Of a stretch of 64,000 nucleotides of DNA, positions 3,001 through 56,000 are shown in pieces. Position 1 is the first letter of the stretch, and each line of letters begins with the position of its first letter. The notes beneath the pieces were generated by a model, which was not told the origin of the DNA, ran no database searches, and was given only the letters and a program-made list of their open reading frames with translations. The stretch comes from Xiphophorus maculatus (lineage: Eukaryota > Chordata > Actinopteri > Cyprinodontiformes > Poeciliidae), in contig NC_036445.1 of the NCBI RefSeq assembly GCF_002775205.1, forward strand, positions 3,678,802 to 3,742,801, read 5' to 3'. A program made the position numbers and the translations under genes.

Positions 3001-4928
3001 TGCCCTCCAATACTGGACCAGAACCACTGACTGATGTGTTGTGTGGAGGGTCTGGAAGGAAGTGAGAAATATGAAATACAAATCTAGTACATATACATGT
3101 TGATTAGGTGTTTTTGATAATAGCAACTATTCCTCTTTTTACATCCCTATACCAACACACTATTAAAAAGCTCCTTTTTGTTTTCAAAGCTGAAGCAAAT
3201 GTGTCAAAAATCTCAAAATGTATTTGAAAGGATCTTTTTCATGAATTACTTCCCTGAGGTCTGACCACTATTATATCTAAGATTTGAAACTAGCGATGAT
3301 CCAATAAATTTGTGATCCATTATCCACACAGGAACAGCTTTTTAATCAAGACCATCAGGTATCAACTTCAGCATCATCAGCCACCTATGGTAAGCAGCAA
3401 TATTTTCTTATGGTACCGTGCACACACACATTAACGTGACATGCAAACAAGCAACAAAAAACTTGTTCAGGTTCCACTGACAGGAGACTTTGTGCCCCCT
3501 TGAGAAGAATGCAATATCCACCTCATCAAAAAAGCATGACTGTCAGTATCTTCTATTTAGATAAAACTGCAAACTGAATTAAAGGCAATTTAAATTAAAA
3601 CTTTCAGTATATAATTTTTACTAGTGTTTTTTCAAACTGTAATCCTTTTCCAGAAAGTTGTCAAATGTGTCACTCTACTCTCCAAAGCCGCAGACAAAAA
3701 ATTGCTACAATTGATTGTAAAACCTGACCATTGCATATGTAAAAGAATGACAAAATAGCTCCTTGATTGGGTTATTATTCCTACTTTTATAAACCCAATT
3801 CACTCTAGATTATATTTTCAATTAAAGAAAAATAAAACTGTTAACAAATGGATAAATCAGCTGTGATTTGACAGGTCTTTCAAATTATGTTTTTTTTTTT
3901 ACTGCAAAATGTACTCAAGATTTTTAAACAACTTTTCTCACTCTGTAATGTCACGTTTTATATATGACTTCAGACTTATAAACTGATAAAATATTTCTAA
4001 GTAAATTGCAGTCAAAACCAGAAATATACTCACAAAAAACCTGTATAGTCAAACTTCTTTCATAGACAAGGTCACTGTACCCAGCTTGTCTGTTGTATGC
4101 AGCACTGCAGGAAACCTTCTGTCCATGGTGGAGGTAAGAAACATTAAAGTTCATGACAGAGTTTAAAGATTTTGCTTCCATATTCTCCTCGATGTCCCCT
4201 AAACTGGGTGACCATGTCACAAGTGGTAGAAGAGTAGGACAGGCGACAACAGCTGAGCAACTCAAGGAAACTGCAGTGCCTTCTTCAACTTCCAGCTTAG
4301 GGGGAGTTATGGTAGGCTGGGGGAGTGTATCTGAAAAGTAAAACAATAAGGAAAAGCTGTGGGTCATAAACAAAAAAATATAGCTTTTCATGGTTAAGCC
4401 TCTACTGAACAGACCTTTAGTGGTGATGCGAACACTTTTTCTAAAGTTAAACTTCAGTGAGTTGTCACACTGCAGTCTGAAGTAATAGTTGTCATAATGG
4501 TTAGATGGCAGGTTGGTGAAGATGGTGGTGCAGTCTTTGTCACGCAGAATCCCGGTCAGCTTTCCCTGTAGGAGATTTAAGCTCACACTCGCTCCAGTCA
4601 GGCTGGAATCAAACACCTGCGTTTGGCTCCAGCTGCCTCTCTTCCATACGGCTTTACATGAGTGGTCCAGGTGTTCATCCCATTCAGAAGGCAAGCTGAA
4701 AGTGCAGGGGATGATCACACAGGATCCACTCAGCCCCTCTACAGTCTGAGGCATGAAGACTGACCACTGCTGGCAAAAGATGCCTGAGGAAAAACAGTGA
4801 GTTCATCAACATAGGTTCAACAACTGCAAGGTTTCCACGAAAGCAGATTTTTATTAAAAACATATAACATGAAAAATCTTACCTTGAAATGAAAAATATA
4901 TGAACAAAAGTTTCACAATGAACATCAT
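1..4928 (-). CDS. Siglec/CD22-like Ig receptor, 3' end beyond the window
   Basis: Cell-surface lectin-type inhibitory receptor of the Siglec (CD22/MAG) family, probably on leukocytes. Exons on the minus strand: 4928-4883 (signal peptide, [14 protein letters not shown]), 4783-4415 (V-set), 4330-4034, 3051-2794, 2707-2447, 1834-1568 and 1485-1189 (five C2-type domains), 1097-1007 (membrane span), 220 to the window edge (tail). Every junction obeys GT-AG and the phases agree. The V-set shows Siglec hallmarks: GSCVIIPC in strand B, a strand-E cysteine (DKDCTTIF), and the arginine of YYFRLQ where Siglecs bind sialic acid. About 598 extracellular residues precede the span [19 protein letters not shown]. 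The tail has LNYVNV (ITIM-like, also a Grb2-type YxN) and TAEYSEIRI, like the membrane-distal Siglec motif but with Ala at -2. Six Ig domains is one more than MAG and one fewer than human CD22, so I give no symbol. The stop codon is not in the window. Confidence 0.85.
4415..4783 (-). other. V-set Ig domain exon of the Siglec-like receptor
   Basis: The exon starts after tttttcctcag and ends in ACTAAAG before gtctgt. It joins exon 1 in phase 1, giving [20 protein letters not shown], the usual Siglec N terminus. The unusual Siglec disulfide (strand B to strand E) is supported by C in IIPC and C in DKDC. The conserved sialic-acid arginine is in YYFRLQCD. Sialic-acid binding is inferred from family knowledge, not shown. 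Confidence 0.8.
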
Positions 4929-8214: not shown

Positions 8215-23672
<15,458 letters not shown>

Positions 23673-36536: not shown

Positions 36537-39500
36537 CTAGTCTTGCAATCCACAAAGCAGGTTTGCAGGCACTGCAATATCTGCAAAGGAAGAAGAAAAT
36601 GTGTTTTAATAAGTCTATTATAGTTTATAATTGTGTCAAGCCTCGACAATCTTGGAATGAAATCAGCCATAACGTTATGACCACCCTTTCTAATGACAAG
36701 CTTCCCATTATGCTGCCAAATTATGCATAACATGTCAGTTTCTTGACTTATCGAATTTGTCCCAAAAAAGAAAAAAAAACAATACAATTAGGTGTCTAAT
36801 TAAATAACAATTCCCATGCTTAACAACTTCACATTACAACTTATTGTTATTAAAGTAACTTTAGGAGGATTTTTCTCTTATTCTTATAAGGGCTACATTA
36901 TCTAGTTTCAGTTTTGGTTTCTGTTCAGAGCTTTTTTGTGTGTGTGTCAATGTTTAAATAACCATTTAGAAAAGGTATGACGGTTCCCTTTAAATATTGC
37001 TAAACATATCCTAATTAAAAGCTAAAATTTAATTTGTTGCCAGCTTGAATTATCTGTATTTTATTTTAAGATTTGTCAGCAAGACAGCTAAAATAGACAA
37101 GACCATTTTTATCTGAAGCAGTTAGACTGCAGTTTTTTCCCCAAAGGTTAAGGTAACAGATGAACTGAGACAACTTCCGTTAAAACTTCACAATAAATGT
37201 CTTAAGGAACTATTCTATGCTCTGAATTAAAAGTAAAATTAATTTACATAGTGGGCAATGTGTTTGTAAAGTTGAGGAAAAATAATAAGAATTAGGTTTT
37301 ACTAAATGAGAGATGATATTTCTGTCATATCTCACACAGTGTTCCCAAAATTATTCTAGTTGTTTTCACTGTTAAAATAGGTTTACCGTCTTCATGATGC
37401 ATTCGTAATGTTAGGGCTGACTAGTGTCTAACATTTAGATTTAACGGTAGGTTTGTAGCGGTTTAAGTACCAATTTTCTTTGGCTTAGGGAGATTCAGGT
37501 TGTCCATGATTTTCACAAACTCCTCCAAATTCTTGGTTAGGCGGGGATTGTACTTGCGTTCCTCACCAACTGTAGTAACTGTCTGACCTAGTAAACAAAA
37601 AATCAGAAAGCTTAGTTATAAAGTAATAACATTGTAGAAAAACTATTTAAAAAGGAATGCACAAGAATTATATAATGTAGCTAATTAAAAACATTTGAGC
37701 ATTTCTTTGGTGCATGAAGCCTTGAACAGGACATGAATAAAAACATTGTAGTGACTTCTGAGTGTTGAAAACTATGTTTTTCAATTACTATGCTCTGGCC
37801 TAAAATCATTTTTCAAAGTCATTTTGTCACCGTCTGTGAGATAGGACGTAGTTTTAAGAAATTAAGCATGTGGGTTTTTAACCAACCTTTGTAGTCATGT
37901 GCTGGGTAGAGGAGGCAATCTTCAGGCAGCTTGAAGACGACCTCATGGATTGACTTGTAAAGCCTTTCAGCAGAACCTAAGAAAAAGGACCAAGATTAAA
38001 CTCTAAAGTCAAAAGCTTGTTAAAAATATTTAATCAAAGACTTCAAACTGTTAAAAAAAGACATTTATAGAAGACTGAATTATTCAAGTGTTATTTTATT
38101 TAATGCAATACTGCCCCCATGTGTCCCTTGTGTTTAATCACACGTCTAAGAACTATGGGAACTATGGGAAGAAGACTACTGACTATTGTAAGAGATGCAA
38201 GTCGTAATTACTCCAATACGGGAAATTTACAGGAAAATACTGCTATGGGAGCACGCTGGAACAGAAAGCTCAAAATGGGATACTTGACAGGTATGAGGAA
38301 AGACCATGTGACTACCCTGCTGGAAGTCTGTTCTTCCACAGCCTCTGATGAGCAGAGCGTCCCCAGTGAAAGCCATGCTCTTGTCCCCCAATACCAGGGT
38401 TATACACCCATCAGTGTGTCCTGGTGTTTCTCTCACTATCAGACACTGGTGATTAGAAATAAAAAATAAAATAAAAAAATTAGCTGGACACATTTTTTGC
38501 TCAAATCTATTTTATCAAATTATTTCAGCAACAATTTTTCACCATTTACCATGTATTAGAAATAAAATTACAACATACTGATAAGAAAATAGTAATAATA
38601 AATAAATAAATTAACGTGAAAAAAAATAATAGTTGTCCTTACATGTTTTCCGAAGGTGATGTTGTCCCCCTCTGACAGCTGAATATCTGCTGAGGCACCG
38701 CTGTGTTTAGAAATGGCACTCTTCAGTCCCTGGATCTGTTTCTTCATCAACCCAGTGCCAGTTACGTGGTCTGCATGGCAGTGGGTATTAACTACCATAA
38801 ACACACACACACATTAGATTTTGTTATTGGAAGTAATTTATTGTCAGTAAGCAAAGTTGGAAATACTTAAATATTTTATTGAAGGGGAAAAGGTCTAACA
38901 GCTATATGGGCTGTTAGACCCATATGTTCAGCTTGGTGACGTCCAATGGCAAACTGCCTGACAGGACTATTAGCAGAATGATGATCATATCTGTCTTTGT
39001 TAAGTAACATCGACTTTGATCTAATACTGATTAGATCAATGTCAATGTCAAAAGATCATCTACTTTTATATGTGCAGGTTATGCAAGCACTGAAACATTA
39101 TTAAGCTGATAATTAACTTGATGAAAAAAAAAACTTCTTCAAAAGCTATCTTTTGTGATTATGGCTAGACAGATTACCCATCTCAGAGAAAGCCATTGTT
39201 TGAGAAAGTTATGATCTCCAAAATGTAAATAATTTTCTTCACACCACTCCAACATTTCTACCCTGCTATTAAATGCTTCTAAGGAGATTTCAGGGTTTTT
39301 TTTCAGCTGTATTGATTATAGATAACTGCAGCACTACCTTTCCCTCACTTGCTGCTACAAGTCAGCAACTTGTCAGCTGCTTTTGCATGTAAGGAAATAC
39401 TTTAAGTTGCAAAAATAACACAAACAATTAACTACAGCAGCTTCACTCGTCATTCTTATTAAGATGAGACTTTAAAAATGATAATTGGCAAGCTACAAGC

Positions 39501-40830
39501 AGCTTGTCTGTAAAGCAGGTGGTTACAGGCTCACAACTTCTATTGCGAGCAAGTCAATGTGAGAAAAACTAAATTGTGTTTTTACTTAAGGTTGATCATA
39601 CCTACCAGGCCATGTCTAGTTCCAAGTCTGATTCTTTAATTCTGTGAAAAATTCAGTTAAGGTTTTCAATACATCTGTATAATTTACACTTATTTAGATA
39701 TTCTTTGATGAAACCTTTTTTTTTGTTTGCTTTTCATGCAGATCCGGCAACAAGGATGTAAATAAATGACAGCACAATAAATGAATAAATTACAAAACCA
39801 CAAGGTGAACCTTTTATGTCTGCAGCAGATTAAATGTACTTCAGAAAATTCTTTTTTTTTTCTTTCAAATTGATATATTAATGGAAAGCTTTCAACAAAA
39901 ATAAAACAATTTAAAAACATTCAAAATGTTTTATAAGAGAACACAGATGAGTTTTTGAGGTCATGCCATGACAGAAATTGCATCTCCCAACCCATTTGTG
40001 GTTGCAAAGATACCTGCAATTTTTAGATTGAGCCCCAGCTCCTTCACAAACTTCACATCTCTGTCGAGGGTCTCCTTCACGGGATCAATGATGACTGCCT
40101 CTTTAGTGTTTTTGTCCGCTAGCAGGTAAGTGTAGGTGGAGCTCTCGCTCTCAAACAGCTAAACAGGAAAAACAAGAGGGCGATATCAACAGTTCACATC
40201 TTGCAGCTACGGACACATACATTCCCTCTACATTGTTAGATAGTAATTGTTTTTAAATGAAGCCTAAACAAGTTACTTAATACGGAAGTTTGGAGTTCAG
40301 GTTGAAGAAGTAAAGAGACCAAAATATGTGCTTTTAGGTTAGGATTCCCTGTGTGACAATTTGTTTCTCTGTACCAAAACTACTTGTGGTCAATATGCAG
40401 TTATTTATAATAAAGCTTTGGGAAATATGGAAAAAATCTGTATTCAAACATCAAATAATGAAATATTGTTTTTAATGGCAAGGAGAAAGACATTCAACTG
40501 TAACTGTAGAAAACACCCATCTATTTTACGTCAACTGCAATGTCATAGTGATGCAGCGATGACACTAATTAAGCTCAGAGCTTTTTAAAAGCTAAAACAG
40601 AAAGAATACGCGTTAATCAGAGTAATGTTAGTTAAAAGACATTTCACCTGAAAAACATCAAAATCGTGTCTGACAATTACCTCACTGTACTTACAGTAAG
40701 CTAAGGCTAACTCTACAACTTCCTGTTACGCAGTCAAATTCAGAGCTGCAGCACTGTCCCCAAGTTTGACCATACAAAAGTTTTAAAACACACATACTTG
40801 TCTGAAGATCGGCGCTTCGGGATTCGCCAT
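36537..40830 (-). CDS. ethe1: Persulfide dioxygenase ETHE1, copy A without leader peptide
   Basis: Oxidises glutathione persulfide to sulfite in the sulfide-oxidation pathway; a non-heme Fe(II) enzyme of the metallo-beta-lactamase fold. Exons: 40830-40798, 40158-40014, 38791-38643, 38445-38316, 37976-37887, 37587-37471, 36580-36537; 235 residues. THCHADH gives H63, H65, D67 and H68; H119 (PGHTDG), D138 (AFTGD), R147 (CGRTDF) and H179 (PAHDY) match human H79, H81, D83, H84, H135, D154, R163 and H195. The protein begins [14 protein letters not shown], so it lacks the 16 or so N-terminal residues that carry the human mitochondrial signal. The start is firm for this exon: the upstream frame reads TAA four codons before the ATG. 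Location in the cytosol is therefore inferred, unless an unseen upstream exon supplies a leader. It is upstream of phldb3 on the same strand and in tandem with copy B. Confidence 0.92.
36654..36695. repeat. Short transposon-end-like fragment
   Basis: GCCATAACGTTATGACCACC occurs in the last ethe1-A intron. This word is frequent at the ends of fish Tc1/mariner-type elements. Only a few tens of bases are recognisable. Confidence 0.35.
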
Positions 40831-42779
40831 CTTGGAGCCGTATTACTTAATGTTTACTCGAGTCAGCTAACGCACGTGGTAGATGCGCCCTCTCAGGAAA
40901 GTAAACCAATGACTGGAGCTGCGTGTGGTTGTTCCGCTTACATATAGCCTCTCAGCCACGCCCAGATTACCTGTCAAGAACTAGTCTGAGATACGTGATC
41001 TCCAAGGGTGCGTCAGACCAAACACATGCTGCACAACCATAATAAAAAAAAACTGCTTTGTCATCATTACTCCACTTTTAATCTTTACAGAATTGTATTT
41101 ATTGCTATGGTTGTAAAGGTAGACTATTGATTGAGGATGTTAATAATTATATCTAATACTATTTGAGCTCTTAACTTATGCAGCATTACTATTACATGTA
41201 AAAAATAATAGCAAGGCAGTGATATTGGATTTGATGGAGTTATTGCTTTTGATAACATGTACAGCCTTGTTTCCACTGTGCATTTGCAGGCCTCGGAATG
41301 CCTCTAAATATTCTCCAAAAACTGTTTTTACAAAAAACCTGTGAATCAGTAAACGCATGTCTGCCTTATCTCCAACTGAGCTATAGCATGTGAACAAAGT
41401 AGATTATTATGCAAAGAAAAAACAAGCTTTAGGCACATGTTTTATCATCATGGGGCTGACTTGAGACCAGAACATTTCTTTGTAAACAAATAATTATTTA
41501 GACGCACTTTATATTATATTTGACATTTGATCACTTCTGAGATAAAAAGCGAAAATTATGCTAGAAGCAGTTTGAAAAGCAAACTTTATTTGGAGAGCAC
41601 TTTCCATACAGTATGCAAAACAGATACAAAGGCTAAAAACAAAAGGGCTTCATTACAATGAGGCGACAATAAGGGAAAGTATGGTTGGAGTATTGAGATC
41701 TAAGAACACTAACAGTCAGTTACAGGTACACTGCACAGAGTGGGTAGAATAATAAAGGAGTAAAATAAAAAAATTTCAACTTGACTACTAATCAATTACT
41801 TGATATAGAAAGTGTTATGACAGACAAGACAGTGATTCCAAACATAAAACCAAGACTGATTTTGACTCTGTTAAAGCAGACTAACAGTAAGCTTCCAGAA
41901 TGGTTACAACCTTTTCTGAAAATTACTTGATTGTGAAAACCAGTATTATTCCAAAACCAACCAATTTTAATGAGGTCAACAAAATTTGCCAATAAAAGTG
42001 GACCAATGTCCAGTGAAAATGACTGAAGGTATTCATTGCCTAAACTAGAACTTGCTAAGCAAGATTCATTATATTAAAATTTCAGTAAAAAATAATGTAT
42101 ACAAGTGCATTATCCGCTTTTGTTTTGATAACTGCAATTATGTTAGTACATATAAGTCAACAAATTGGAGACTTTGCTATGGCACTGTGAATCCTTATAA
42201 CTTAATAATTTTTTCATTATTATTATGATCATTCCAGTTTTTTCTTGAGTTCAAACTGTGAATTGTTTCTAGTAATTATGACAACTGAAATAGTTTCATT
42301 TGAAAACAGTTTCATTTTGATACAGGTCTCAGAAACTATTGCAGTTATTGAGTCAAAGGACTGAAAACAGCACAATCAGAAATTTTGAAAAATAAAGAAT
42401 CCAAACAGATTAAAGGTATTGGCCTTCTTTTTCACATATAGATTATACAAGAGCCAAGGTCATTACAAGGTTCCCTAGCTTGTTCTGTAATGAAAACTTC
42501 TTTATAACCCCTGTGACTGGTAGCAGTGTGGGTGATTAAATTATATATATTTTTAGCAAAATGCCATTGAATAGCCCATGCAAAAGAAGTCACATGTACC
42601 AGTAAAGCAACATGACCATGAAATCAAACCTTGAAGGCATTTATTTCCCTTAAACATGTTTTGTTCATTCATTCTTTCAATCATGTTACAAGTCAAAATA
42701 TTACAGATGTACAGAGTAAAACACACACATTTAACTTAAGCGCAATACAAAAACTGTTAGTTCTTCTATAAACAAAAGC
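40831..42779. other. Upstream region of ethe1-A, intergenic
   Basis: Immediately upstream of the ethe1-A ATG lies a CpG-containing stretch to about 40980 that includes an E-box-type CACGTG at about 40873; this is the likely promoter, with no clear TATA box. From 41000 to 42779 the DNA is AT-rich and I recognise nothing. Confidence 0.4.
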
Positions 42780-42787
42780 ATTGTTAT

Positions 42788-44165
42788 ATGGAGCCCTCCA
42801 GGGGACAGGGATTTTTTTTTTTGCGTTCTCTCGCAAAACCTTTGCGTCTCCTCGCAATAATCTACTGATCAGTTCATGCGGCATAATTGAATACTGTAAG
42901 CCCTTCTAAAGGTGGCTGCCGTACTTTCTGCCTTAATACAAGGTTATGTTTTTCCATGTATGCTAATATCTCCTTGTGAAATATATGACATTTTATATAT
43001 TTTTCTTTAGTATGGAAAGACACCACAAACCTATGATATAAACAGAAACTTTCCATAAGTAGGAAAAAAATAAAAATACATCCAAACTATTCGAACTATT
43101 TCTGAGTTATTATCGCGGGGTAATAAGTCATCTGACAGTTTTGATTGTGTTTCTGTTGTGTTTGTAGTATGAATTTAAAGGGCTTCTTTCAGTGCCGTTC
43201 CATCTTAGCCTTAACAGACATAAACATGCAGTAAAAAAAAAAAAAAAAAAAAAAATCTATTTTCAATCAGTGTTTTGCACCAAGCAGTTAATAATAACTG
43301 TTGTCACTGATGGTCTGTTAGAGCCATATGAATGAAATAAGTAATTATTGATATGACAGGAGCACGCGACTTTGACACTTGGATGGTGGGTGTGTCGATG
43401 TGGGCGTGGCTGTCAGCAAGTATGAATGGGAAGTTTACTGGCGCGCTGGCTTTGTGTGTATGAGGAAACGGGTGAGCAGGGTGGTCAGTTCTTGCAAAGT
43501 ATGGAGCATAATAATCAAAATGGAATAAATTGATAATTGTGACAGAACAAAGTGGCTTGGAGTTGATTGATACACGGACAGATCAGATTCCCCAAGTAAA
43601 CCTAGTGAGGCCCTCTACCACCATTAGTTTGCTGTGTTTAATAATAATAAATTGTGTTTGTTATTATTAAGTCTTTGGTGCAAAAAACTGATTGAAAATC
43701 GATTTATTCACTGCATGTTTATGTATGTTGAGGGTGAGATGGAACTGAACATGAAAACGGCCCTTTAAACCATTCAGACAACCAGCACAACAGAGACACA
43801 ATCAAAACTGTCAGATGACGCATTACCCCGCGATAATAACTCAGAAATAGTCAAAATTAGGATGTATTTTTATTTCTTTCCTACTTACGGAAAGTTTCTG
43901 TTTATATCATCGGTTTTTGGTGCCTTCCTATCCTATAGAAAAAGATATAAAACTTAAGATATTTCATAACGAGATATTAACATTCATGAAAAAACCTTAC
44001 ATAACCTTATATTAAAACAGAAAGTACGGCGGCCACCGTAAGAAAGGCTTACAGTATTTGATTATGCCGCATGAACTGATCAGTACAATATTGCGAGGGA
44101 ACGCAAAAGTTTTGCGAGGTAACGTAAAAGAAAAAAAATTCCCCATGTCTCCTGGAGGGCTCCGT
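42788..44165. mobile_element. Fold-back transposable element with about 490-bp inverted arms
   Basis: Left end ATGGAGCCCTCCAGGGGAC, right end GTCTCCTGGAGGGCTCCGT. The arms are about 42788-43281 and 43672-44165. Matching landmarks in inverted order include TGATCAGTTCATGCGGCATA, CAGAAACTTTCC, the GCGGGGTAAT block and the GTGCAAAA word. The 390-base centre (43282-43671) is unrelated between sides and has no open frame. ATTGTTAT (42780-42787) and ATTGTTAC (44166-44173) look like an 8-bp target duplication with one change. A non-autonomous DNA element; 8-bp duplications suit several superfamilies (hAT, P, Merlin) and I cannot choose. Confidence 0.8.
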
Positions 44166-44209
44166 ATTGTTACAATATTTTTTACTATCAAATTAGATTT
44201 TGTTCCTTT

Positions 44210-44215
44210 TTTATT
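44210..44215 (-). promoter_or_regulatory. Polyadenylation signal of ethe1-B
   Basis: AATAAA on the minus strand about 200 bases after the ethe1-B stop and just 44 bases outside the fold-back element. Confidence 0.55.
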
Positions 44216-44411
44216 TAAAGCACAGTTATAGTTAGATCAGTAGCTACACTCCAAATGATAGCAGATTTTCAAATACGTAACGTACAAAGAACAATAAAAG
44301 TTATTTATGGTAAGCTGTTGGGGTCGGTTTTCCTGAAACAAATTTTTGTGTGAATCATTCCGTAGCTATGTCACTGATTTTGTTATTTTCTTCTTGTTTT
44401 CTTCAAAACAT

Positions 44412-47400
44412 TCAGAGTCCATGGAGTCCACAAACGAGGTTAGCAGGCACTGAAATATCTGCGAAAGAAAGAAAAGAGAAATGATTAAGGATTTGTAGTG
44501 TCGCAGTTTTCCCATTGAATTGGCACATTGGAACCCACAAATTAACACAGGTTACAGCTGAACTGTGAAACAAAACTGATTTGATACCTATTTTATCTGG
44601 CTTTGGGAGATTCAAGCTGTTCATGAGCTCCACAAACTCGTCCTTCGACTTTATGAGACGAGGGTTATACTTGCGTTCTTCACCAACCGTGGAAACAGTC
44701 TGACCTGATTCACAAAAACACATCCAGTCAGTATTACATGTAGGTACATGTTTATGGTATAGTTTTAGCTTAGAACCCCACTGATTAACTACAACATAGT
44801 GGTACATTTCAGTAAAGTAGACTACATCTCAAAAGTTAATTCAGTAATTCAATGCAAAAGTGTAAACCAAATATTATGTACAGGAGATTCATTATATACA
44901 CTAATATACTTTAAGCCCTGTTTTACTCTTGGTATTGACTAATGATTTACAACTAATGAAGAAAGGCTCTAAATTCAGTTTTCCAAAACTAACTGTTGGG
45001 AACTTATTTCTACCACAGATTTTCCTTCCACTCAACATTCCAATAATATGCTTGGATACATCTCTCAATTTTTATTTATTATATCCCAATTTGTTTATTA
45101 CTCTATTTAATACATTTGTAAAACAATACTATAAAAACTGTCTTGTAAATTATGTGACATTATTTTTAATTAGATATGATTTCAAACATTATGTATATGT
45201 GTTTATAACTAACCTAAATAGTCATGTGCTGGGTAGACGAGGCAGTCATCAGGCAGCGTGAAGATCTTGTCGTGGATTGAATCGTAAAGGCATTTTGCGC
45301 AGCCTGTAGTAGAGATGTGACAATTTCAGAAGATTTAGGATACTTCAGGAGTGTAAACAATGAGAGCATTTCAAAATATTCCATGCTGAAGTTTACATAA
45401 TAGCTTAAAAACAACATTACAATAATTCCACCAAGACAGATTCTGAATCCATACTTCAACAGTTCATTAAAAGGCTTTTTCTACACAAGCCAATGAGGCA
45501 ACTCATTCCCATCATTCAGGTGGTTTAGTGAATGAATGAATTTCAGAAATGGAGGGCGTTGTGCCCCGAGGACTAGAATTGGGAAACTATTTATGTAATG
45601 ATAGATCCACTAAAAACATACAAGTCATGACATATGCCTACCTTGCTGGAAGTCTGTTCTGCCACAGCCTCGGATAAGCAGAGCATCCCCAGTAAAAGCC
45701 ATGCTTTCATCTGATGACACTAAGGTTGTGCACCCATCCGTATGTCCCGGTGTTTCTCTTACAGTCAGGTACTACAGAAGGAAACAACAGTCAGCTCAAA
45801 GCATGTCAGATCGTTTTTTTATTTGGCAATTTCAACTGAAATGTTCCTAATTTTACAGTGCGTGAATTACAAATAAAAAAAAAAAATTAAATGTAAAGCT
45901 GACAAGCACATTTTTACACCTGATCTCTCAACTACACCGAGATAAAACAGTTATGAAAAAGTTTTTTAGCTTTATTACATGTTTTCCAAAGCAGATTTTG
46001 TCGCCCTCTGACAGCAGGATATCTGCAGAGGCACCGCTGAATTTAGAGATGGCACTCTTCAGTCCTGCAATTCTTTTTTTCATCAACCCTGAGCTGGTTA
46101 TGTGGTCTGCATGGCAGTGGGTATTCACTATCAGAAAAAAAGGGAATAAAATACAGGTTACCATATAGAAATGTATGGGTGAAAGTCATTCTGCCCTTTG
46201 CATCTGTTTCAGGTCATTTTGTACTAGACTTTTTCGGGTACGGAAAAGAAGTTGTCTGCCACTGGGTGTTTAGAGTCAACTATGCTTCAAGCCATACCCA
46301 CCAAGAGGACGTTTACTACCTGCTTTGTTGACAGAGGATTGAAAATAACGTGCATTTATATTGTTAGTCTACCATGCAGAAATGTGGTTATGACAGAGGG
46401 CATAAGGGATCACCACCCAGCTCTCTTATCAAGATAAGGCTGTTTTAAAACTGTGGTCAGCCCGCTACGAGTGGCATAGCTGCTAAGCAGTGGGCTTTAG
46501 GATAATTGCCCAAATAAGTTCCTCAACTGATTACCCAGCTAATATCAGATTGTTATACCTTTATTACTCTTTAAAGAGGAGACAAGTAAAAGTGTATAAT
46601 ATTCTGCAGAATAAGCACTTCAAAACTATTACTAAATTTAGCAGGTCTTCTGTCTATATTTTTTGCTTTGTCTATACATGAAGATCAATATAAGTAAATG
46701 TTATAGAGAACAGTAATATATTAGTTTAGCAGAAGAATGAATAAGTATTGCTTTTCTTGTAATAATAGTGATCCCATTGTATTATTTGTTTAGATTTTTT
46801 GCAAATAGTTGTGTAAATAAAGTGAAAAGTTGCTAGCCTTGTTCAAGATTATCAAACCATAGCAATCTCATACAGACACATGCCCATGTAACCACAACAC
46901 ATAACACCTACCGGCAGGAGTTCTGTGGGAGCGATTTATGGTTTGATCAGGTTTAGTAATCTGTCTTTTGTTTTAAAACTCCACATTGGGATCACTTATC
47001 AGGAAAATTGTATTAACTCCTAAAAGGGCTATGGTATTTGTTAACCAGAAAAAAAAAACAATATAAATAAGTTGTAATGTTGGTTTTCAGGAAATAATTA
47101 ATTATTAATATAAACTTTTATTTGACACTGAAACTTTTTTATGATTATTTACCTCCATAATTCATGAAAATGCTTGACTACATTGATAAATAAGCTCATT
47201 TGCCATGGCTTAAGTATGCTGGTTCAAAAATAGTGTGACAGGGACTAGGAAATGGGGTAACAGGTAAATGGGCATTTTGATCATATTTTGAATTGACTGT
47301 AGGGGATAACAGTGTGACCACATGATTTTCATCTAAACATTTTAAATTGAAGCTTCTGCTCATTTACTGAAAGTAAAAGATTTTTACATGCTGTAGTGGA

Positions 47401-48626
47401 CAACTGACCGTGTTTAAAATATTTTAAATTATTAATATGTTCTCTTGTTTCTATTTAAACTGAATCAAAGTAATTGTTTTTATCAATGGGATGCAATTGT
47501 AAGTGTCTTAAATAAGCATATTTAAAAACTTTACAATGCTTACACTGACATAGCCAGTTAGGAAGACCAGAACACAGATTTTTAAAACAAGTCTAAACTC
47601 ATGGAAAGTAACAGTATTTTGTAGCTCAGCCACAAAAACACACACAGATACCTGCTAGTAACAGCTTTAGCCCCAGTTCCTCTACCAGGTTTAAGTCTCT
47701 GTCAATTGTCTCCAGCACAGGATCGATGATAATGGCCTCTCTGGTGTTCGTGTCTGCCAGCAGGTAGGTGTAGGTGCTGCTCTCCACCTCAAACAGCTAA
47801 ACAGGAAAAACATGTGACAGGTGTTACTCTACAATAATTGCCAACAGACAATAAAGGTCACGTACTTCACGTCCTGCACATCTTCCTCAGATAATGTTGG
47901 TGAGTGTGGTGAAGACAAAGGAGAAGAGAAAGCAGATTGTAACGAGAATGCAGTGTGTGGGCATGATTTTTTTTTTTTTTGCATGATCAGTGTTACTATT
48001 TTGATGTAAGTATCTCCTTATTTGGGAGAATGGCGAAAAATATGTTGAATAAACTTGAAATGCAAACATATAAACTGTCATTGAGAAAAAGCAACAAAAA
48101 GTTGCCAATAAATATAGATACTGCATTATGGAATTGTAAAAATAAAGTCTACTTAGCTGTAAAGCATAACACAAACTGCAAAGTCATCCTGATGCAGACA
48201 TACTGCATCTGTCAACTTCAGTCTAGCTTGACTGGGTTTTAACAAACCACCAAAAATACTAGACTACTAAAGATTAATCTCTACATCATGCTAGATGCTA
48301 ACCCTTCATGCTTCCTGTTATCTTACATCAAGAATGAAGGTTAAACATTCTCATGACTCGATCCCTTTGACATAATTGAATAATTAACCCAGGCATAAGT
48401 TCATATAACGTGGACCTACTTGTCTGACGAGCAGTCCTTCTGTCTTCGCTATCCTGGAGCAGTAGAACCTGGCATTCCTCTGCAGGTCTACGACAGAATT
48501 CTTGCCGGGAGAGAGGCGCCTGCTTTGGGTTGCCGCATAACTCGAGCCCTCGGTGTTGGCTCCGAGACGAAGCGACAGAGCTACAGCCCGATGGATCGGT
48601 CTTACTCTGGTTAATACAGAGCACAT
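44412..48626 (-). CDS. ethe1: Persulfide dioxygenase ETHE1, copy B with mitochondrial-type leader
   Basis: Mitochondrial-matrix sulfur dioxygenase of sulfide detoxification. Exons: 48626-48420, 47796-47652, 46127-45979, 45771-45642, 45303-45214, 44704-44588, 44458-44412; 294 residues, longer than human (254) because of the first exon. That exon encodes 69 residues starting [20 protein letters not shown]: many Arg, Ser and Ala and no acidic residue in the first 23, typical of a cleaved targeting peptide. Metal ligands are H121, H123, D125, H126 (THCHADH), H177 and D196; CGRTDF and PAHDY are intact. Exons 2 to 6 match copy A in exact length (145, 149, 130, 90 and 117 nt) and phase, so the pair arose by DNA duplication, not retroposition. 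Copy B is the better candidate for the ancestral mitochondrial function. The C terminus is CGLHGL, versus CGLQD in copy A. Confidence 0.92.
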
Positions 48627-50078: not shown

Positions 50079-53000
50079 TTATCTCAGAAAGGAAATGGTT
50101 GCTGGCAAGGTCTCCTCTGGATCTGCTGTGGTGTCCTTCAATATTTCTGATTTAATCTGCAATCAAAGTGCAAACAGAGTAGATTCAACATCACATTTTA
50201 ATCTGAAGAAAAAAATAATTACCTACCCCAGCTTGTTGAGTCCATGTCTACAAACTGAATCATTTACTTTTCTTTAATACTTAAAACCTAAGCATTAACT
50301 TTAATATATTCAAGACTGAAAAGGACAACCTGGTTTTAGACAGTATGGTATTTACCTCTGTGACTCCTTCAACCCACTGGAGCAGGTGAGTTACTCTGCT
50401 GTAGACGCCTGGTTTGTTAGGCCGGGCACAGCCTTCTCCCCAACTCACCACCCCTGCCAGTCTCCAGTCCCCATTAGGTGTCTCACACACCAGTGGTCCC
50501 CCACTGTCTCCCTTAAAAGAATAGCAAACAAGTCTGACCTGGTGATTCTTCAGAGTCCTTGTTAGGCTTTGAGAAGAAATTTCTGAAAAGGCTTGTGTGT
50601 AATTGCGTGTGTAATTTTGATGTGTCTGCTTTGTTTTCTCAAGTCCCCTGTCAGTGACAGCAGATGTCCACTCACTCTGAGTTTTGTTCTGCTGAAGGTT
50701 TCTTTCTTGTTGAAAGGGAGTATTTCCTTTCCATTGTCACCATGTGAATGCTCGCTTTGAGGGACTGCTGCAAAGTTAATGACTTGATGCAAGCAGCTGT
50801 CGTGTTGCCACATCCTCATTCAGTAGGAAGGATTGCTGCAACGTTACTGACCCAATACACTTTGCTGTGTTTCCTTAGACACCAAACGTTTTTACAAGTT
50901 GGCACAATAAACTGAATTTAACTGCACTTATAATTGGGATCAAATAAAATTGTAATCCCTTTAAATGATTGAATTTTATTTATCATATATATCTGTATTT
51001 AAATCGAATCAGTTTGCTTTGTAAAGTGCATTTGAGATGCATTTGTTGTGAATTGGTGCTATATAAGCACTGACTGAGAGTGAATTATGTCACTTGGGGT
51101 ATACCTGGCAAGAGTCGACGCCCCCTGAAAGGCTCCCAGCACAAATCATCCGTGGAGTAATGAAGGCCCCATAGATGGCCAAGCTGGAGCAGACGGACTG
51201 AGCTATCACATTCACCTGAGCCTCCTGTAGATTTTCTGACACAAACCCTGAAACATTAGTAATAACACAAACAAAGAACATTTAAGAAACAACTCCCTTA
51301 TGGGTTATTTAAAATTACTTAGAGATTATTTTAAACAAAATTTAGTAAGCTGAACAATATAGTTTAAGGACGTTTTCACTTTTTGGTGTACTTCATCACC
51401 AGTGGGTAACGAAAGGATCTTCCCAAAGGATCAATAAAGTACAAGTCTAAGTCTAAGTCTAAGTCTAAATATAGCTGACAGAATTTTATTAGTGTTTTAC
51501 TTTTAAAACAATTTGGTTTAGCCTAATGGATATCAGACTCTTGGGGAACATTTATTTGTTTTAATTCACCTCCTTCTTGGGAAAATCCCCAGCCTGTGAT
51601 CCAGCAGGGTGCTCCAGGAGGAAAAGACTCTTTCGGTGTCGGTAAACACACTGGCCGCACCCCACCTATAAAAAGAGGCACCAACTATCAGATTGCAACA
51701 TTTTATTATAGGTACAATCTAAGCAGTAAAATCATAAAAATCACTTAGGTGTAAAGATCACAAAACATTTTTTTGTCACATGAAACACTGTCACTTTTCA
51801 AAAACAAGCTTTTTCTATTGTTTTCTTAATCAGCTTCTTGTTTGTTATTATATTTTTGTCAAGGTTAATACATAAAAATTTTACAACAAGTTTTAAATTC
51901 ATACACAAATACCAATACAATTCTTAATTAAAAAAAATGCTCCTTTCCCCCATATTTCATGGGTGAAGTGATAACGCAGAAGCTGCTAATGTTATTTATT
52001 TATTTATTTGACTGGATGTTTGACTACCTTTCTTGGTAGAAATGTCAGAGTTCATTTATACTATTTGGCTTCTTGAACCAGAATCTGTTTAAACTTTGAT
52101 TGGAGATTTTTTTTAGGATTGATGTTGAGGGTATTCCAGAAGCCTAATATTAGCTTTCACATGTATTTACAAGATGTATTTGGGACCATTTCTCAACTGG
52201 AACACTCAGCTATGTTCACAGTTCAACTACCTGATCCAGATAAAATGGTTTGTGGGCTTCAGTGAAACAAATGCAGAATTTTAATGGCCTGACCAGTTGT
52301 TTACCAAGGACAAAGCCAGTGCTCCAAAATATACTCATAGCTTCCTTTGTGGAAAATACAAATTCGTTATGAGGAAACATTTTATGGTCAGAGGGGACAA
52401 AGATAAAGTAATTATGCCATAATGACTAGAAGCATGTTTGAAGGAGTTGATTATTTCAAACTTATAAACACTGCACCAACTACCAAACACGGTGGTAAAA
52501 CTATCATGCTGAGGGCCCATTTTGCTGCCATTTCATTGGTGCTTTGCCATATATATAGAAGACTACCTCCAAAGTCTACACTTCACAACTACGCAGTCAA
52601 ATACAATTGGGTTTAAAAATCTGTGCTTTATGTGTCTACCTGAGCAAACACACCCTGTTGATGGATTACACTGAAAAGTGGGATCTTAAAATAAAATAAA
52701 TGTAAAGCAAGAATTACCACAGGCCCTTACTGATGACTGTGTGTGGTTTTTCTGCACTGTGAGCAAATCATCAACAATAGCTGAAGTCACTTAGACACAT
52801 ATTTATGAGGGGTATATCTATATATTTGAGCATGTATGTGTAATTTTAACCTGGAATAGATAATGGAAATTCTATAATTAATTTAGAGTAGACTAAATTA
52901 ATTGTAGAATTAATTTTTGTTTCTAAAAATTACTGAAGAAACTCTGTTGTATTGTTAGTCCATTTAAAAAAGAATGACTAAAAAAATAATTAAAACCCCA

Positions 53001-56000
53001 ATATTTAATATGATATTCAGTTGGAATGTGTGTAAACTTCTAACTGGAACAGCTACTTCATAACAACAGCCTCATGATCAATCCAACAAAGAAAAAGGTA
53101 TGGGAAAATATGCATGAGTCCTCAAAGCTAATTTACCATTACTATATTTCTAAAATGATTAATTGTTAACCATCAGCTGATAAATTAAATTCCCATATGT
53201 TAGTTAAGCGCTAGTTCATAAAACAAAATGTCATAAGACACATCCACTGTGTATTTAATCGTTTTTAAGGATGTTTTCAAATCCGCCAGTAGATGGAGCT
53301 ATTTCTTTGTTACCAGTCATGTCCATGTCAGTGATGGTGCGCAGCAGCCCCACATCATAGTCATTGTTGTTCTTGTTAAACTGAGGGTGGTAGTGAATCA
53401 GCTGAGCTCCGTGGCGTTTCCCCATGGAGCTGTGTGCGATGCTCACTGTGCCCACTACCACAAACCAGTCTGCTGCTTGAAACATGTTGTTTCTGCAAAG
53501 AAGAGAAATAATCTGTTTGCAGGTTTACTTCAAGCTCAGGTAACAACATAGACTCCATATATTTCTCAAAAGCTCTGAGGCTGAGGCAGTTGAAGTCCAA
53601 AACTAGGCTAGGATTTAGGATTTTATTTGACAACATTCTGATTCGAACTGTGTGTCATTTAAAGGGACTAAAACAAGTACAAGTACCAGTTTTACTTTAC
53701 AGACAGCAAGTTTTTAGAACTAAAACAAAAGTAATATGAATTTATATGTTGATTAATTCAATGTTATTACATCAGTTCCATTATTACAATCAAATGTTTC
53801 TTAGTCACTAATTTTTTGATTAACATCTTATTTTCACTTCAGCTCTACAGACAATTTAGTGAGCAGCTTTTTGTCTGAAGTGGAGCTCAAAATATTTTCC
53901 GTAAGTGCTCAAAATCCCAATTAAACATTAAAGGGGTTGTGTGGAGAGTACTAGCAGACAAAACACCATCTGTCTACTTCAAGCTCTTCGTTTCAAAATG
54001 TGTGAGTGCTTTTGCTTCAATTTTATTTGTTACATGCTCATAGATTGACCAACAACCTTCCACTAGCAGATTAACTAAAAGTGACTGCCTGACTGAATGG
54101 CACCTTTTGTCAGTTTTCTGTACATTTTCCCCATAAGTCTACCTCTTACTCAACAAAGCAGTGAGCTGCAGTGATGACCCAGTGGGGGGAGATGATGGCG
54201 CCTCCGCAGACGTGCTTCCCCTTCCAGTGCATGCTGACTTGCCAACCCCACTTGCCCTCTGCCGCTAAGGTCCCGCCCACAATACGTTGGCCGCCATTGA
54301 CCATAACCTGGCAAGCTATATTTGGGATGAGAAAAAATATATATATGTACATGGAGTAGCAATAAAAATACATTTTAAAAATTGCCTGTCTACAAAGGTT
54401 ATGAAATAGTTTGCAACAAAGAAAAAGGCCATAGAGCAATAACTTCCAGACAGGGGATAGAAATATAGTCAGACTAAGGCAGGTAAGCACAGACTTAGTG
54501 CTCTGCATGCATTTATAACCCACTGACTGTAATTTTCTTTACCTGCAGTGATGTTTCCTGTCTGGTTGACTGGGTTCTTAGACAGAAAAGGTAGTTGACT
54601 TGAGACACTGCAGCTCCCTCCTGTGTCACAAGGAGGAGGTGATTCATTTGACTCAGATGGGAATGCTAGGAACTTGACTGATAAAAAAAGAGACAAGAAA
54701 TGCAGTGAGATGACAGCATTAGTTACTTCATGCTGACAGTGAGGACTTTTATCTGTAGCGAGGATGGTTTGGAGAATGAACCTATGTTGAATTTTTTTGA
54801 AGTAAATTATATGCTTACATTGTGTTTGAGTTTTCTCATGATAAAACAAACTGATTAATAATGCAGTCTAATTAGGTGTAACTAATAGCAGGAATTATAT
54901 GAATTAAATGTACATCTCTTTTTTTTCATTGGTTTTATGTAATATTCACATTTTCTGAGAAATAAAATTTTTCATTAATTGTAAGCCACAATTATCTAAA
55001 TTAACAAAAAAAAATGCTTGTAATCATTCATTTTATGTTTTGTTAAACTTTACAACACATATAGCTAATAACTAAAATATAAGTTTTAATATAGTAAAAC
55101 TGTTTAGTAATATTATAATCTATGAACATGCACCTGTAGGTAAAAAAAGAAATCACATATTTGGACATTTTATATCAAAATCAGACCGCGGTGTAAATGT
55201 ATATTCAAACATTCCTTTCAGCTTCAGCTCCTGGCTGATGACCAATCAACATGGAAAAATGCCATCTCATCCTCCCTGAACTGCTCTTTTGCAATTTGAG
55301 CTAAATGAGTCCTGACACTGTCACACCATCTCAAATGGTTGGAAATTAATTATTCAAGGTATGAGAAGGCAAGAGATAGCTAACCTGAAACCAGTTTGAC
55401 TTGTTAAAACCAGATTTCTTTTGGCATGACAGTGTGATTAGTTCTAGTTCTATTTCTTAGAGAAAAATAATACATGGTTATTAGCTATATGTCATCTGTC
55501 ATATAACTTATGGGTTCAAGTATCAATCTTACAGATTATGTAAATGTAGATAAAGTTGATTTCATCACATACCTAAGAGAGCAGTAATGATGACCAGCTT
55601 AATACACAGCGGGATTCCCAGTATTACAAGCAGTTCACGAGATGAAAAGGCACGATGGTTTCCACCTACAACAAACAAAAAAAATTAGAATTCGGGGTGT
55701 TAAATAATCTATTTTTGAGAAAACATGACTAACATTCAAATCCAGAATCTGCAAGAACTAACTCTTGTAGTCTATTCAGTATCCTTTTTGAGCTGCAGAT
55801 TAGCCCTGCTGGTCCTTCTTCTGTATCAAACGTTGCATGAAGTCCACTTGGATTGCAACTTATAAAATTAGGACCGAGTGTATGAGATTTGTGATACGTT
55901 ATATTTCAAGACTTTATATTTCATGAATATTTGATAACTATTATTACGGAATATGTTTTCATACAATAAGAAAACAGATTTTCTTATTGCATGACTCTTT

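Follow-up and report, generated by a model that had tools for sequence, protein, structure and literature searches.

Does Xiphophorus maculatus possess two forms of the sulfide-detoxifying persulfide dioxygenase ETHE1, one delivered to the mitochondrial matrix and the other kept outside the organelle? The question is raised by a 64,000-nucleotide stretch of contig NC_036445.1 (assembly GCF_002775205.1, forward-strand positions 3,678,802 to 3,742,801; hereafter the window), in which an original prediction made from the letters of the DNA had noted a tandem ethe1 pair, one copy with and one without a leader-like first exon. We consider it likely that the two genes, here called copies A and B, arose by tandem duplication, copy B keeping a matrix leader and copy A having had its own cut in place, and that the copy A product is predicted to lie outside mitochondria.

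Two complete ethe1 genes in tandem

Rebuilding both genes from the window sequence yielded two complete seven-exon ethe1 genes on the minus strand, arranged head to tail with copy B upstream of copy A, so that the pair and its contrasting first exons were borne out. The span 36537..48626 runs from the final base of the copy A stop codon (36537) to the first base of the copy B ATG (48626). Both gene models are predictions; within them all 12 introns are of the GT-AG type, intron phases match between the copies, and exons 2 to 6 have the same lengths in each (145, 149, 130, 90 and 117 nucleotides [nt]). The copies differ in exon 1, which measures 207 nt in copy B and 33 nt in copy A, confirming the 69 residues and 11 codons originally assigned to them, and the predicted products have 294 and 235 residues, respectively. 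An in-frame TAA had likewise been placed near the copy A ATG, and four codons indeed separate the two. However, copy B also has an in-frame upstream stop (TAG, the seventh codon before its ATG), and such a stop is therefore not peculiar to copy A. The features of the pair, in the direction of transcription, are these:

48420 to 48626, minus strand: copy B exon 1, a presequence-like exon of 69 codons with RFY/CS at residues 53-57
47652 to 47796, minus strand: copy B exon 2, whose peptide matches the genome twice, here and in copy A
45979 to 46127, minus strand: copy B exon 3, with the THCHADH metal motif
45642 to 45771, minus strand: copy B exon 4, with the equivalents of H135, D154, C161 and R163
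45214 to 45303, minus strand: copy B exon 5, with the equivalents of H195-D196-Y197
44588 to 44704, minus strand: copy B exon 6 (gene model)
44412 to 44458, minus strand: copy B exon 7, ending in a TGA stop
40831 to 40848, minus strand: apparent remnant leader of copy A, 18 nt directly 5' of the ATG, including the in-frame TAA
40798 to 40830, minus strand: copy A exon 1, 11 codons, 24 of 33 nt the same as in copy B, Met1 opposite Ile59 of B
40014 to 40158, minus strand: copy A exon 2 (gene model), site of an exon-2 peptide match in the genome
38643 to 38791, minus strand: copy A exon 3 (gene model)
38316 to 38445, minus strand: copy A exon 4 (gene model), site of an exon-4 peptide match in the genome
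37887 to 37976, minus strand: copy A exon 5 (gene model)
37471 to 37587, minus strand: copy A exon 6 (gene model)
36537 to 36580, minus strand: copy A exon 7, ending in a TAG stop

A probable leader in copy B and its apparent remnant in copy A

The basic leader that had been proposed for copy B exon 1 proved to be Arg-rich, acid-poor and amphipathic, with a cleavage-like motif. Its first 20 residues carry a net charge of +4 and no acidic residue, its first 40 contain six Arg and one acidic residue, and an amphipathic stretch of 11 residues has a moment of 0.61. The RFY/CS sequence resembles an R-3 cleavage motif; we assume here that the R-3 rule and the presequence criteria applied to copy B hold. 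The N-terminus of copy A is not of this Arg-rich, acid-poor kind, with a net charge of -2 over the first 20 residues (acidic at 5, 14 and 16) and -3 over the first 40.

Copy A nevertheless appears to carry a trace of the missing leader. We anchored the comparison of the two genes on their exon-1 splice donors and used as a control all 7,254 GT dinucleotides on both strands of the whole window. The 51 nt preceding the donors are identical at 37 positions, a value that only the copy A donor reaches among the 7,254 anchors, the next best of which attains 25. Directly 5' of the copy A ATG, 10 of 12 nt equal B codons 55-58 and 13 of 18 equal B codons 53-58; none of the other 7,253 anchors reaches either value, and among 20,000 anchored dinucleotide shuffles two reach 10/12 and three reach 13/18. 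When the alignment is read in the B frame, the TAA of copy A stands opposite Phe54 and its Met1 opposite Ile59, the fourth residue past the cleavage-like RFY/CS motif. An unrelated origin of copy A exon 1 was considered and rejected, since homology links the exon to the 3' end of copy B exon 1. Copy A exon 1 looks like the old leader exon, cut near the mature N-terminus, and the homology of the sequence 5' of its ATG to the B leader strengthens the idea that a leader was lost. Judged by this alignment, the first exon of copy A is a homologous remnant of the first exon of copy B, an identification that goes beyond the earlier reading.

Copy A exon 1 as a candidate first exon

Copy A exon 1 lies within a local CpG-rich peak:

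40600 to 41100, no strand assigned: the peak itself, holding 13-14 CpG per 300 nt

Elsewhere between 39.6 and 42.4 kilobases (kb), 300-nt intervals hold 0-7 CpG each, and richer peaks occur at the start of copy B and near 32.3 kb. The only AAGATGGCG of the window, which we take to resemble a YY1 site, runs along the minus strand from 40833 and overlaps the copy A ATG, whose context we regard as strong. The donor of the exon scores 7/9.

We also scanned the 3,581 nt from the copy B stop to the copy A ATG for phase-0 ATG-to-donor frames with donors of at least 7/9, a threshold that 4 of the 12 donors of both genes miss, so that the scan is blind to weak donors. Copy B exon 1 was recovered by the same scan as a control. 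A single candidate frame (42884-42729) emerged, compared with 0.66 expected from 300 single-base shuffles. This frame does not resemble a leader and runs into a foldback repeat (described below), and no leader-like alternative exon for copy A was thus found in these 3,581 nt.

Several observations weigh against a lost leader and a start at the copy A ATG. An unanchored 18-nt slide over both strands gives two further 13/18 matches (at 4813 and 18473) and, besides A and B, one further 10/12 match (at 1051); because such a slide yields chance matches, the argument for a remnant leader rests on the donor anchor. Homology farther upstream is weak, a gapped alignment there having a score reached by 26 of 1,000 shuffles; with the coding part added the score is reached by 1 of 1,000, and we regard gapped homology farther upstream of copy A as suggestive. 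Intervals as CpG-rich as that of copy A (13) lie near 8.05 and 12.2 kb, where there is no known start, and the donors of copy A exons 4 and 6 score 5/9, as does that of copy B exon 6. A chance-like R-10 motif, a loose pattern present in each copy, occurs at residue 10 of copy A, whose top moment is 0.49, vs. 0.61 in B. Mitochondrial proteins can, moreover, carry internal signals.

Active site and disease positions

For both proteins the top PDB match was human ETHE1 (4CHL) across the mature length, with E = 2.1e-99 for A and 3e-99 for B, which rules out a chance resemblance to ETHE1. The Pfam metallo-beta-lactamase domain was found in both copies; no NCBIfam model reached its cut-off for A or B, that library serving prokaryotes. 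The iron ligands of ETHE1 are reported as H79, H135 and D154 in human numbering (PMC4383860), and all three are retained in both copies, as are the channel and nearby residues R163, T164, D165, Y197, R214 and C247. The original prediction held that all metal ligands and disease residues were kept. This stands for the ligands and for T152, C161, R163 and D196 but not for L55, which is Lys in copy A. We compared 11 disease positions (38, 55, 63, 136, 152, 161, 163, 164, 165, 185 and 196), Gln12 falling within the leader and outside the comparison, and found nine of the 11 kept in both copies. The exceptions are L55, which is Lys39 in copy A and Leu in copy B, and position 63, which is Gln in human, Lys in copy A and Asn in copy B. 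Position 55 varies across the family: among 83 other sequences it is Leu in 30 and Lys in 7, and the Arabidopsis enzyme has Asp there; Lys is therefore probably tolerated at this position in copy A and unlikely to inactivate the enzyme.

The 83 other sequences comprise those of human, Arabidopsis and Burkholderia and 80 bacterial or archaeal loci, which were fetched with copy A as the query together with patterns such as YPAHDYKG, and the set is biased towards copy A. Copy A departs from none and copy B from one of 54 conserved columns, a count that is unfit for ranking the copies because the comparison loci were fetched with the copy A sequence. The residue that follows the H195-D196-Y197 equivalents, beside the active site, is Lys182 in A (37888-37890), Leu240 in B (45215-45217) and His in human; Lys occupies this place in 81 of the 83 other sequences, 80 of which were fetched with copy A.

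Divergence, constraint and copy number

Copies A and B are identical at 173 of 225 aligned residues, and over exons 2-7 (224 codons) they have 171 residues and 78% of nucleotides in common. Four methods applied to these 224 codons gave a nonsynonymous divergence (dN) of 0.155-0.165, a synonymous divergence (dS) of 0.62-0.81 and a dN/dS of 0.19-0.25. Relative-rate counts for A and B were 14 v 11 against human, 11 v 15 against Arabidopsis and 11 v 13 against Burkholderia, and with these three outgroup enzymes neither copy was found to change significantly faster. The sequences support two intact and constrained ethe1 copies, for both of which enzyme activity is predicted.

The two copies group as sisters (support 96/89) in a 23-sequence tree, and the duplication probably occurred after the split from the human lineage; since human is the sole other vertebrate in the tree, it is dated only relative to that lineage. 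The exon-2 and exon-4 peptides match two places each in the 704,300,149 bases of 101 contigs that make up the window's assembly, every match falling in copy A or copy B and giving no third ethe1 copy there, and the divergence of A from B argues against a haplotype artefact.

Neighbouring features

A large foldback repeat lies between the genes at 42812-44136, with five inverted arm pairs (49-144 nt, 75-91% complementary) around a centre at about 43.48 kb; it is probably a mobile element. Upstream of copy B, exons of a trypsin-type serine protease occupy 50284-54538 on the minus strand (Pfam Trypsin). On the other side of the pair, immunoglobulin-domain exons at 1560-2726 on the minus strand (Pfam Ig_2) fit the report that fish carry CEACAM-like genes close to ethe1 (PMC3628338). 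A partial PH domain at 10178-10498, also on the minus strand, falls below the Pfam cut-off (E 2e-4) and is compatible with phldb3; a promoter for this candidate phldb3 may lie in the CpG-rich peak at 32.1-32.6 kb.

Alternative explanations

Copy A could still be mitochondrial if a transcript joined B exon 1 to A exon 2, if some other upstream exon supplied a leader, or if the protein carried an internal signal; the copies would then differ in expression and not in location. A chimera is structurally feasible in that both first exons finish in phase 0 and B lies upstream of A in the same orientation, but the stretch between the genes contains nine poly(A) signals (AATAAA or ATTAAA), starting with one at 44215, which makes such splicing less likely. 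Human ETHE1 acts in the matrix (PMC4383860, PMC12926118), and an upstream exon with a weak donor of the kind found in these genes would have escaped the scan. However, copy A has an exon 1 of its own with a 7/9 donor and a CpG-rich peak, and the only frame that the scan returned was unlike a leader and lay over the foldback repeat. On balance we find a mitochondrial copy A unlikely. Decay of copy A, which would have lost its matrix function along with the leader and would persist without a role, appears less probable still. Loss of the leader would end the classical function, two donors of copy A (exons 4 and 6) are weak, and Lys replaces L55; against this, the frame is open across all 235 codons, the catalytic residues are kept, dN/dS is low with copy A not significantly faster than B, and position 55 is variable within the family.

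It is more improbable again, and in our view very much so, that copy A serves mainly as a nuclear-cytoplasmic regulator and not as a detoxifier, as has been suggested for human ETHE1/HSCO (RelA/p65 export, HDAC1, p53). A KPKK patch at copy A 217-220, absent in B, fits what we take to be a weak four-residue nuclear pattern, which is very weak evidence, and a purely regulatory role would not need the conserved active site. For human ETHE1 itself, nucleocytoplasmic shuttling has been proposed (PMC4819959). Nuclear roles of this kind are possible but unsupported for copy A. The preferred reading thus remains that of tandem duplicates with one leader kept and one cut in place, copy A being probably cytosolic or nucleo-cytosolic.

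Comparison with known systems

Human ETHE1 (4CHL) belongs to the same family and has the same iron ligands and substrate-channel residues as both copies, with identity at 144 of 225 columns with A and 147 of 225 with B. There is presumably a single ETHE1 gene in human, compared with two in tandem here. The crystallised human protein lacked its targeting sequence of 20 residues, and relative to that reported leader copy A has none and copy B a longer one (PMC4383860). The Arabidopsis ETHE1-like protein (2GCU) and the bacterial persulfide dioxygenases (5VE3 and relatives) are of the same family and have the same active site, and their matched part starts just before the RQLFE segment, like a mature form; they differ in not being tandem pairs of a leader-bearing and a leaderless gene.

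Arginase (ARG1 beside ARG2) and rodent SIRT3 are described cases in which a duplicate left the mitochondria or an N-terminal mitochondrial signal was lost (PMC2790464). Those are other enzymes; the ethe1 copies are direct neighbours, and what appears to be the severed leader can still be made out. According to the same source, 59 of 92 human multigene mitochondrial families have mitochondrial and cytosolic members; its main text does not mention ETHE1. Relocalisation of duplicates through gained or lost mitochondrial signals is therefore already established, and the ethe1 pair would add to such cases. Extra fish copies of ethe1 are also known already, given that in salmon and huchen a syntenic group including ethe1 is reported as duplicated on two chromosomes (PMC10029227); these are block duplicates and not tandem ones, and leaders are not taken up in the passage concerned. 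Among the matches listed in the open-licence literature we found no tandem or leaderless ETHE1 duplicate in fish and no report of ETHE1 relocalisation, and passages about the zebrafish and pufferfish loci mention ethe1 but do not take up tandem copies.

Proposed history and significance

We propose that one ancestral mitochondrial ETHE1 gene was duplicated in tandem to give copies A and B. Copy B would have retained the matrix-targeting presequence, and its leader-bearing state may be taken as ancestral because human ETHE1 has a reported leader (PMC4383860). In copy A the presequence would have been cut in place: a TAA now interrupts what used to be presequence, and Met is encoded at the position of B Ile59, so that translation would start at about the old mature N-terminus, with the CpG-rich start region and the intact active site retained. 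The copy B product would be imported into the matrix, where a 2026 review places ETHE1 and where its step follows SQOR in the known pathway (PMC12926118), and would there oxidise the glutathione persulfide (GSSH) derived from SQOR. Copy A would be expressed from its own ATG, and its product would remain cytosolic, perhaps also entering the nucleus, and oxidise GSSH to sulfite in the cytosol. Cytosolic GSSH could come from the persulfides of CBS, CSE or CARS1, which are reported persulfide sources, CARS1 being cytosolic (PMC12926118).

The earlier reading of one mitochondrial and one extramitochondrial enzyme is partly supported overall: two intact copies, a leader-like exon 1 in one and none in the other, and the homology expected of a lost leader are supported by sequence. 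Whether the pair represents subfunctionalisation or neolocalisation depends on the ancestor. Human ETHE1 has been assigned to the cytosol and nucleus as well (PMC10572406, PMC4819959), and one of these sources lists nucleus, matrix and cytosol as its locations (PMC10572406). If the ancestor was similarly dual-localised, the pair would be a case of subfunctionalisation, as first proposed.

We put it at about an even chance that certain fish possess a persulfide dioxygenase dedicated to work outside mitochondria, made from a tandem duplicate cut at the mature N-terminus, with persulfide removal split between matrix and cytosol. If this is true, separate leader-bearing and leaderless genes would allow cytosolic and matrix persulfide removal to be knocked out separately, and the pair would offer a readable case of relocalisation, since the cut-off leader is still visible 5' of the new start.

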